Source: Sneathiella sp. P13V-1 (GTDB lineage Bacteria > Pseudomonadota > Alphaproteobacteria > Sneathiellales > Sneathiellaceae). Taken from it: 64,000 bases of DNA. A program made the position numbers and the translations under genes. The stretch is taken from the NCBI RefSeq assembly GCF_015143595.1, contig NZ_WYEU01000002.1:310001-374000 (forward strand). Reading direction: 5' to 3'. Numbering within the stretch: the stretch's first letter is position 1; every line of letters begins with the position of its first letter. A model generated the notes under the pieces. The model ran no database searches. It saw only the letters and a list, made by a program, of their open reading frames with translations, and was not told where the DNA came from. Shown piece after piece: positions 13,071 through 15,719 of the stretch.

Positions 13071-13101
13071 AAAAAAGGGCGGGTATTTCCCGCCCTTTTT
13101 T
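13071..13101. terminator. bidirectional intrinsic terminator after gatB
   Basis: GGGCGGG (13077-13083) pairs with CCCGCCC (13089-13095) around a five-base loop. Six A residues precede and six T residues follow, so it can stop transcription from gatB on the plus strand and from the small 36-codon ORF on the minus strand. Confidence 0.92.
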
Positions 13102-13127: not shown

Positions 13128-13238
13128 TTAGAATTGGTAGGAACCTACAGCCCACAAAACCATAAATGCTGGAAATGAAAAAATAGCTACAGCATCAGTA
13201 TATTTGGAAATCTTTGATTTAGAAGATTTATTAGCCAT
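13128..13238 (-). CDS. putative 36-residue single-helix membrane protein
   Basis: An ORF of 37 codons reading from ATG at 13238 to TAA at 13128. The protein begins MANKSSKSKISKYTDA, which is strongly basic, continues into one hydrophobic helix (about residues 16-32, AVAIFSFPAFMVLWAVG) and ends SYQF. That is the usual plan of a small inner-membrane protein with a cytoplasmic N-terminus. A purine-rich GGTAGAGAGAG lies 7-17 bases upstream. It has its own bidirectional terminator 27 bases downstream, and a perfect FNR/FixK box sits 88 bases upstream with a TAGAAG -10-like hexamer at the right spacing. I do not recognise the family; it resembles neither CydX nor CcoQ. Being real is an inference from start site, composition, promoter and terminator. 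Confidence 0.6.
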   Translation of the reverse strand: MANKSSKSKISKYTDAVAIFSFPAFMVLWAVGSYQF

Positions 13239-13325
13239 ATCGGACTCTCTCTACCAAGTTTCGCGATCACATCGCGGTGATTCAACATTTGCGCTATCTT
13301 CTAAATTTTCTTCGCAGTTGCAACA

Positions 13326-13339
13326 TTGATTTGGATCAA
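13326..13339. promoter_or_regulatory. FNR/FixK-type operator in a divergent promoter
   Basis: The bases TTGAT-TTGG-ATCAA are an exact match to the FNR/Anr/FixK consensus TTGAT-N4-ATCAA. Counting 41.5 bases from its centre, the class II activation position, finds a -10-like hexamer on each side: CACAAT at 13362-13367 for the plus-strand gene at 13443, and TAGAAG (minus strand, 13303-13298) for the small ORF at 13238. Both match TATAAT at four of six positions. The site would make both transcription units respond to low oxygen. Confidence 0.72.
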
Positions 13340-13442
13340 TTGCGACATTATGTAGCAACTGCACAATTTTGCTAAAAGTTGCGTTAATTATTTATCAAGG
13401 CCTCACCTGTAGTTTTAGCTGTGAAATTGTAGGTGTACGCTG

Positions 13443-13805
13443 ATGAATACTGGAAAAGCCGGAACTGAAAATCCTGATATCGCTAGTGCGATATGGATGG
13501 CTGTTTTTATGCTGTTTGCTGGATTTATCTTTCTGGCATTTCTTTCATTAAAGCCCTCATCAAACGGGGAAGATGTTGCCGCAATTTTCCCACTTTCCAT
13601 GAGTTTGAAAGACATCACCTCAATTTCAGCCGATTTACCTTTTACGCCACTGCGTGCGGGATGGTCGGATAACATCGTCATATTCAGGCCTCAACCCGGT
13701 GCCGCCTTGGAAGATTTAAGATCAGCAGGGGCGTTATTGGTTGTGAGCGCAATTGTGAACGGTGGATGTGTTTTTTTGACAAGTGACATTAAAAATAAGG
13801 CTTGA
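13443..13805 (+). CDS. membrane-anchored protein of unknown function, chemoreceptor partner
   Basis: A 120-residue protein with one N-terminal transmembrane helix (about 17-37, AIWMAVFMLFAGFIFLAFLS) and an 80-residue domain after it, probably in the periplasm. The domain has the pattern AAIFPLSMS ... RAGWSDNIVIF ... LRSAGALLVVSAIVNGGC. I recall similar short anchored proteins in other Alphaproteobacteria but know of no assigned function. It ends three bases before the start of the chemoreceptor gene, so the two are almost certainly one operon. The FNR/FixK box at 13326-13339 lies about 105 bases upstream. A role in signalling to the receptor is inference from position only. Confidence 0.75.
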   Translation: MNTGKAGTENPDIASAIWMAVFMLFAGFIFLAFLSLKPSSNGEDVAAIFPLSMSLKDITSISADLPFTPLRAGWSDNIVIFRPQPGAALEDLRSAGALLVVSAIVNGGCVFLTSDIKNKA

Positions 13806-13808
13806 GCT

Positions 13809-15347
13809 ATGAACGCCCTTAATGAACTTAGAAATACAGTTTCAAAGTATCTGATCTACCTTTTGTGGGCACATGTGCCTGTATTGGTGGTCGCAGGTAT
13901 GATAACCGGTGGTGATTGGGTCACGGCTGCTGTTGGTGGGGCTGTTTTTGCAGCCATCGCAACCGGCCTGAAAATGCAATCAAAGAATGAACTGGCCTAC
14001 AGATATGCGGCGGCGGTGACATATGTCATTCAGGTTGGTTTGCTTGTATATGTCTTTTCCGGCCATCCTTGGCAGATTGACATTCATATGTATTTCTTTG
14101 CGTCCCTTGCAATTGTTGCTGCTTTTTGTTGTTGGCAAACGATCCTTGTGGCCACAGTTGCCATCGCTTTGCATCACTTGGTATTGAACTTCGTGCTGCC
14201 AACAGCCGTTTTCCCAGAAGGGGCTGATTTTGCGCGGGTTGTTTTGCACGCGGTTATTGTTGTTTTGGAATCTGCAGTGCTTGTTTGGCTGACGGCCAAA
14301 TTAACCGGTGCTTTCGCAGCCTCTCAAGAAGCGATCGAGAGTGCTGAGCAAGCTGAGCGCCATGCGAACCAGGAAAAAGCCAATGCTGAAAAAGCAACTG
14401 AAGAAGCGAAAAAAGCAGCGGAAGAAGCGCTATCCTTAAAAGCCGAAGCCGAAAAGCTTCAGGCTGAACGCGATCAGTCCGTTGCCCGCCAGGAAGAGGA
14501 GCGTAAGCAACAACGCAACGAATTGGCAAATACATTTGAGCACTCTGTCGGTGGATTGCTGCAAAAAGTATCTGACAATTCCAAGCAGTTGTCTGGTCTT
14601 GCGAATAATCTGCAGAGTATTTCGACCAATGTTGAAGGTCGTATCAGTCAAACGTCCTCCCTTGCAGAAGATATGACAGGTAATGTTCAAAGCGTGACGA
14701 CTGCGACGGGTGAACTGAGCGATTCAATTCGTGAGATTTCCTCTCAGGTAAATCACTCAAACCAGGTTGTTTCGAGTGCATCCGAACGTGCGGAAGCGAC
14801 CGCTCAGACAATGGGTGAACTTAAAGAGGCCGCACAGCAGATCAATGAGGTGGTAAAACTGATTAATGATATCGCTGAACAAACTAACCTGCTGGCGCTT
14901 AATGCAACGATCGAGGCGGCACGTGCTGGTGATGCGGGTAAAGGCTTTGCTGTTGTCGCGAGCGAGGTGAAAAACCTTGCGACGCAGACAGCAAAAGCAA
15001 CCGAAGATATCTCTACGCAGATTGCAGGTATTCAGCAGGTGAGTGATCAGGCCGGGACCGAAATCGAAGCCATTTTGCAAACGATCCAGGAAATCACGTC
15101 AACCACATCCTCCGTTGCCGCGGCGGTAGAAGAGCAATCCGTTGCGACCAGTGAGATTTCAGGAAACACACAGAATACATACAACAGTACAGTTCGCTTG
15201 CAAGAGGAAGTCGGCAATATCCAGGGTTATACTCAGGAGACTTCGGCAGCATCTCATAGTGTGCAGCAAGCAGTTGATGAGATGGTCCGTGATACAGACA
15301 ATGTCATGGAAGAGGTCAGCGCACTACTGAAGCAAATGCGACAGTAA
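13809..15347 (+). CDS. methyl-accepting chemotaxis protein with six-helix membrane module
   Basis: A 512-residue chemoreceptor. Instead of the usual two helices around a periplasmic sensor it starts with about six transmembrane segments (roughly 14-33, 37-54, 66-83, 90-109, 110-130, 144-165) with very short loops. A charged Ala/Glu/Lys coiled coil (about 165-235) follows, then the signalling domain with the conserved hairpin tip [20 protein letters not shown] and downstream [13 protein letters not shown]. No HAMP or PAS domain is evident. With no external binding domain, the ligand or stimulus may be sensed in or at the membrane, for example redox or energy state, which agrees with the FNR/FixK box ahead of the operon. 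A terminator follows at 15376. Confidence 0.93.
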
Positions 15348-15375: not shown

Positions 15376-15403
15376 AAAACGCCCCCTATTGGGGCGTTTT
15401 TTT
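15376..15403. terminator. bidirectional intrinsic terminator between chemoreceptor gene and convergent ORF
   Basis: The stem AAAACGCCCC (15376-15385) pairs with GGGGCGTTTT (15391-15400) around a five-base loop, with more T residues after it. Flanking A residues let it act on the minus strand too; it sits at the very end of the minus-strand ORF ending at 15402. Confidence 0.9.
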
Positions 15404-15719
15404 ATATGAGCACCATTTCTATCCTATAAGGGGCTTTGTCCTGAATGACGACCACCTCTATATCATAATGAGTGGGGGTGGATTTTTGGAAAGAGATTCC
15501 CCAGGATGTCACTTTCAGCCAACAGATCAACCCCCCGTACTTGATCGGGACATGAAAGCCGGAAGCTGGCCCTGTGCAATGGCAGCGATGAAAGGTAAAA
15601 GGGTCAAGTCTGGTAGGGGGATTTACATGCCAGTTGGCGCCTTGCATATCGAGCTGTTGGTAATCAAAGCTTTCCCCGTTAATGGTGTTAATTAGTGAGA
15701 TTTCAACATTCAGTGGCAT
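15402..15719 (-). CDS. uncharacterised 105-residue protein
   Basis: A 105-residue protein, probably mostly beta strand, with no signal peptide or membrane helix. Visible landmarks are GANWHVNPPTRLDPFTF, HRCHCTGPASGF, KYGGLICWLKV and the charged end VVVIQDKAPYRIEMVLI. The spacing of W-x-x-x-PP, a central GPASG turn and a later aromatic-rich strand faintly recalls aegerolysin-like beta-sandwich proteins, but this is a weak impression. The minus-strand reading is preferred over an overlapping plus-strand frame because it has an excellent GGAGGGAAAAG ribosome site before its ATG at 15719 and a terminator at its end. Its neighbours (chemoreceptor, recO) give no functional clue. Confidence 0.65.
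   Translation of the reverse strand: MPLNVEISLINTINGESFDYQQLDMQGANWHVNPPTRLDPFTFHRCHCTGPASGFHVPIKYGGLICWLKVTSWGISFQKSTPTHYDIEVVVIQDKAPYRIEMVLI

Follow-up and report, generated by a model that had tools for sequence, protein, structure and literature searches.

Small membrane proteins are easily missed by genome annotation, and many of those that are known act on respiratory complexes. Among the latter are CydX, CydH/YnhF and CcoM, small stand-alone subunits of terminal oxidases; CydX and CcoM serve high-affinity oxidases. These proteins share with the small membrane protein described here a length of 30-40 residues, a single helix and short polar ends, but their sequences do not match it, and in the present genome ccoS is a separate gene. 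CydX has been described as a stand-alone small subunit of a terminal oxidase (PMC4325964).

On the regulatory side, the closest described systems are the FnrL-activated promoters of Rhodobacter, namely, those of ccoN, hemN, fnrL, and dorS (PMC4634722). The locus described here has in common with them a TTGAY-N4-RTCAA operator, an FnrL-type regulator, and the linkage of fnrL to hemN-like and cco genes; it differs in its target, a small protein that is genus-specific and unannotated, and in the second conserved element that adjoins the box. For this second element, the described counterparts are the operators of PhaR, given as CTGCNNNGCAG in R. sphaeroides, NGCN3GC[GA]N3 in B. diazoefficiens, and YGCRNYGCR in S. 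meliloti (PMC12542648, PMC10888616).

The features of the locus, which lies in a 64,000-nt window (the whole stretch of DNA analysed), are collected in Table 1. The explanation that we favor, with a probability of roughly 0.6 for the model as a whole, is that of an FnrL-activated, class II-like promoter that has the small ORF as its target and a PhaR-like second site, with a respiratory role for the encoded protein.

Table 1. Features of the locus in window coordinates
Feature	Position	Strand	Basis or remark
Hairpin terminator of the small ORF that gatB can also use from the opposite side	13071..13101	-	Terminator search
36-aa single-helix membrane protein MANKSSKSKISKYTDAVAIFSFPAFMVLWAVGSYQF	13128..13238	-	21/25 genus genomes, 0/118 others, pN/pS 0.31
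Candidate -10 hexamer TAGAAG of the small ORF, class II spacing	13298..13303	-	4/6 here, 5/6 in five relatives
Second promoter element TTGCAACTGCGA (YTGCANNTGCGA), PhaR-operator-like	13312..13323	-	2 bp from the FNR box, small-ORF side
FNR/FnrL operator TTGATTTGGATCAA	13326..13339	.	Pattern match and genus conservation upstream of the small ORF
Additional, imperfect copy of the second element (GTGCAGTTGCTA)	13353..13364	-	Other side of the box
Partner protein of 120 aa with a single N-terminal TM helix (11-35), small domain, invariant Cys109	13443..13805	+	Model and orthologue comparison
512-aa methyl-accepting chemotaxis protein (MCP), six TM helices, no external domain, WQIDIHMY / HHL / RVxxHA	13809..15347	+	Pfam, model, alignment
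Terminator of the partner-MCP operon	15376..15400	+	Terminator search

The operator and its regulator

A pattern search confirms the perfect TTGAT-N4-ATCAA box that the initial annotation had reported at 13326-13339; in the whole window, TTGATTTGGATCAA is the sole match, also when one mismatch is tolerated. By itself, the box is not decisive because a perfect one is expected by chance 0.23 times per window, and the decision falls to genome context and conservation. The whole genome contains 13 perfect sites, compared to 1 for a reversed-pattern control; several of the 13 are within coding sequence, and other perfect boxes are found near classic FNR-type targets, namely, a napF-like gene, ompW, and the gene of an FnrL-type regulator.

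This regulator contains the cysteine cluster CSACAAHKTALC (C-x2-C-x7-C) and matches the NCBIfam FnrL model with an E value of 1.3e-51 and a score of 175, which is under the 300-bit equivalog cut-off. Its gene has a perfect box of its own upstream, at C2:92143, and is followed by a gene with a hemN-type CxxxCxxC (radical-SAM) start; ccoN comes next, and cco-type genes and ccoS lie beyond it. The box thus has a resident regulator to use it, in support of its earlier assignment as an FNR/FixK-type operator. That the box is a chance match, a reading to which the presence of a perfect site in about one fifth of shuffled windows might lend some credence, is hardly believable with an FnrL-type regulator resident and the box conserved in all 21 small-ORF loci; indeed, the conservation already refutes this reading, unless FnrL fails to bind.

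The small membrane protein

The 36-residue membrane ORF that is missing from the gene list was found as described on one arm of the divergent region. Its product has a basic N-terminus and four invariant residues, P23, W29, A30, and S33, and the relatives, of 36-41 aa, likewise combine a basic N-terminus with one helix of the type AxIFxFPxxMLIWAVxSY. A profile search finds this ORF in 21 of the 25 genomes of the marine genus Sneathiella and retrieves no match from the 118 non-Sneathiella genomes searched. The conserved core evolves under purifying selection, with a pN/pS of 0.31 (codons, 91 pairs), which identifies the ORF as a coding gene. The locus is a complete unit with its own terminator hairpin, and a search for structured RNA at the locus found none. 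With the promoter, terminator, and reading frame all conserved, the regulation of the small gene is directly testable.

Two genomes depart from this pattern. In G017 (L073, G017:C357), an in-frame TGA breaks the small ORF, with the FNR box still perfect. In G001, a box-less partial copy of the ORF (L075, G001:C12:859253) is located near gatB, and the intact copy with its box (L072) follows about 830 bp further on; the box-less copy looks like a remnant left behind gatB by local duplication or relocation.

Which gene the operator goes with

Conservation of the box in relatives, proposed in the initial annotation as a check, was examined across the genus, and for the small-ORF arm the result is clear. 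Every one of the 21 main loci has the box upstream of the ORF; 17 of these boxes are perfect, 3 contain a single mismatch, and the one in G010 is weak, with two mismatches. The box center is 22-126 bp, most frequently 73-98 bp, from the first ATG of the frame. About a dozen genomes of the genus keep the box and the small ORF without an adjacent chemoreceptor, and both are also retained in genomes that have no MCP relative at all at the search threshold, G003, G018, G020, and G022 among them. The receptor operon, when apart from the small ORF, has no box upstream (G007, G017, G023), and in G019, where the receptor is present and the small ORF lost, the box is degenerate, a one-mismatch site. 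Outside the genus, some 30 receptor orthologues from other Alphaproteobacteria, including Kiloniella, Thalassospira, Kordiimonas, Terasakiella, and Dongia, lack a box in the 700 bp upstream, even if one mismatch is tolerated. The comparison of genomes indicates, then, that the box belongs to the small ORF and not to the receptor operon.

These observations bear directly on the model of the initial annotation, in which both arms are under a single FNR box and together form an oxygen- or redox-tuned taxis module. Of the divergent control, the arm of the 36-aa ORF holds up, with its conserved box; the chemoreceptor arm is not supported, the box being missing from the receptor operon when the two are apart. 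In the present genome, 110 bp separate the box from the downstream 120-aa gene that heads the receptor operon, so that co-regulation at the level of the strain is possible; the box, small ORF, and MCP are adjacent in 7 of the 11 MCP-bearing genomes of the genus; the three genes are neighbors in S. chinensis; and in G012, the small ORF, partner, and MCP share one location, away from gatB, and this lends some support to an association of the three genes. Moreover, FnrL controls chemoreceptor genes in Rhodobacter capsulatus, mostly by repression though (PMC4634722). Against these points stand the box that stays with the small ORF where there is no adjacent MCP, its absence or decay at separate receptor operons within the genus and its absence from the orthologous operons elsewhere, as well as -10 hexamers that, on the MCP side, never exceed 4/6. 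We consider control of both arms unlikely, and an oxygen-tuned taxis module in this strain is possible but unsupported. A tempting inference is thereby corrected: a shared divergent operator does not mean an oxygen-controlled chemoreceptor.

The same adjacency in seven genomes, along with the joint relocation in G012, could also be taken to mean that the small protein serves the neighboring chemoreceptor as a subunit or regulator. This seems very improbable: at least a dozen genomes of the genus have the ORF with no MCP next to it, several have it but lack any MCP relative at the search threshold, and the ORF is absent from all the non-Sneathiella genomes, which do have MCP orthologues.

Promoter architecture and the second conserved element

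The -10-like hexamers with 4/6 matches that the initial annotation placed at class II spacing on both sides of the box are indeed present, the one on the MCP side being CACAAT at 13362-13367 (+), but at chance level: random sequence yields a hexamer of at least 4/6 at this spacing in about 36-57% of cases, so that in this genome they carry almost no weight. On the small-ORF side, five relatives have a 5/6 match to TATAAT (TATAAG/TATAAC/TATAAA/TATATT) at the spacing that puts the box center at -41.5, whereas the 4/6 match here is at chance level. On the receptor side, no genome has a -10 hexamer above 4/6.

The conserved part of the promoter extends beyond the box. An element of the form YTGCA-NN-TGCGA begins 2-3 bp from it, on the side of the small gene, and in six relatives an additional exact copy precedes the box by 29 bp (-29). 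In each of 12 genus genomes, the joint motif of FNR box and second element has exactly one occurrence, and the control has none. Taken alone, YTGCANNTGCGA is strongly enriched, with 31 genomic sites compared to 2. Sites of this kind lie upstream of or between several genes in G000, for example, L122, L115/L116, L128, and L139.

A doublet of the second element (L159:5450-5481) is located between phaC-like and thiolase genes and adjoins phaR, the gene of the PHB regulator PhaR, which is encoded in this genome. We propose YTGCANNTGCGA as a candidate PhaR operator of Sneathiella, with GC-N4-GC spacing. It resembles the known PhaR operators in its two GC-centered half sites, which match YGCR, and in the doublets that flank the -35 region; the difference is in the spacing, N4 here instead of GC-N3-GC, that is, one base longer than the published consensi. 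The PhaR operator variant of Maehara reportedly has a spacing of N3-4. By sequence likeness, PhaR would be the second factor at this promoter. For the TGCGAC stretch on the MCP side, a RegA-type site was also considered. In B. diazoefficiens, the FixK2 network is modulated by PhaR (PMC10888616), which makes a joint FnrL/PhaR promoter plausible by analogy.

The arrangement could also be read in the opposite sense: the box would serve repression, either directly or within a looped promoter under dual regulation, FnrL and/or the second factor would shut off the small ORF, and the small protein would act in oxic conditions. Three points speak for this reading: a weak sigma70-like promoter, TTAGCA-17-CATAAT at 13375-13347 (-), whose start site would coincide with the box; the overlap of the second motif with the promoter spacer, a location open to a repressor; and the many genes that FnrL of R. 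capsulatus represses as well (PMC4634722). However, the sigma70-like match is itself at chance level (2 found, 2.9 expected), and the distance from the box to the -10 hexamer fits activation in several relatives. We regard a repressor site as quite unlikely and activation as the most likely direction of regulation.

Under the favored explanation, low oxygen would lead FnrL to activate the class II-like promoter through the box at 13326-13339, and the single-helix protein of 36 aa would be made. The second site, resembling an operator for PhaR and hence for PHB status, overlaps the promoter spacer, so that the small gene may read both oxygen and carbon storage. A more elaborate, tentative version, which we think rather doubtful, has a dual-input promoter, with oxygen sensed via FnrL and stored carbon via PhaR, and a genus-specific protein that tunes a respiratory complex when PHB is held and oxygen is lacking.

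A likely respiratory role for the small protein

The small protein has no match above cut-off in Pfam or NCBIfam and no match in the PDB or among sequences. Several identities were considered and rejected. Weak PetN hits (E about 0.03), obtained for a few members of the small-ORF family only, were treated as noise, and so was a hit to a centromere protein in the PDB (E 2). The protein is not a CydX-like subunit of cytochrome bd because the bd oxidase is absent from many ORF-bearing genomes, including this one, with cydA found in 12 of 25 genomes. Nor is it CcoS, the real ccoS being part of the cco cluster and the family model giving no match to the small protein.

Size, topology, and regulation together suggest that the small protein probably modulates a low-oxygen respiratory membrane complex. 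Most likely, it would insert with its basic end inside the cell and modulate or stabilize such a complex, for which the best candidate would be the cbb3 oxidase, encoded next to fnrL and in every near-complete genome of the genus. The co-occurrence as such is uninformative because ccoN is present in all these genomes, with or without the ORF, those of the ORF-less G009, G019, and G023 included.

The six-helix chemoreceptor and its partner

The other arm consists, as had been noted, of a small anchored protein and a six-helix chemoreceptor without an external sensor domain, a description borne out by the ORFs and the AlphaFold model. The product of 13809-15347 is a genuine MCP, with an MCPsignal domain (PF00015, E 3.7e-31); the model (pLDDT 91) has six membrane helices and no external domain. 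The signature WQIDIHMY / HHL / RVxxHA is invariant over 27 sequences. An N-terminus inside the cell, which is implied by the cytoplasmic location of MCP output, would put the signature residues in the periplasmic half of helices 4-6. Nearly all orthologous loci have a gene of about 90-140 codons that overlaps the receptor start or ends less than 100 bp from it. The model of the partner (pLDDT 84) consists of one membrane helix and a beta-alpha-beta-beta-alpha-beta domain, in which one cysteine is invariant.

Neither the partner nor the six-helix part of the receptor has a Pfam match above cut-off or a sequence match in the PDB, so that the latter falls into no known sensor-domain family, and a Foldseek search of the PDB with the two domains found nothing below 0.001. 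Six helices joined directly to a coiled-coil output, without an external domain, are known from the six-TM receptor domain of CqsS. The adenylyl cyclase Rv1625c/Cya of M. tuberculosis (PDB 7yzk) is likewise built in this way, but its resemblance to the six-helix receptor is not significant (Foldseek E 0.86, TM-score 0.49).

Judging by gene order and sequence conservation, the receptor and its membrane-anchored, periplasmic partner are a conserved, undescribed two-gene unit in Alphaproteobacteria (window 13443-15347; L076-L109). The divergent partner-MCP operon is an independent and more widespread unit that adjoins the small-ORF promoter in part of the genus. Within the locus, this two-gene receptor is probably the more novel object, although it is independent of the FNR box; as a side result, the analysis brings to light a six-helix sensor domain not described before, together with its dedicated periplasmic partner, the two being kept as a pair across many Alphaproteobacteria.

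Beyond the receptor, a 105-aa protein without a Pfam match is encoded at 15402-15719 (-), and similar ORFs occur beside recO in other genomes of the genus. In the receptor-less genomes, the gene of this protein is located directly upstream of the FNR box promoter.
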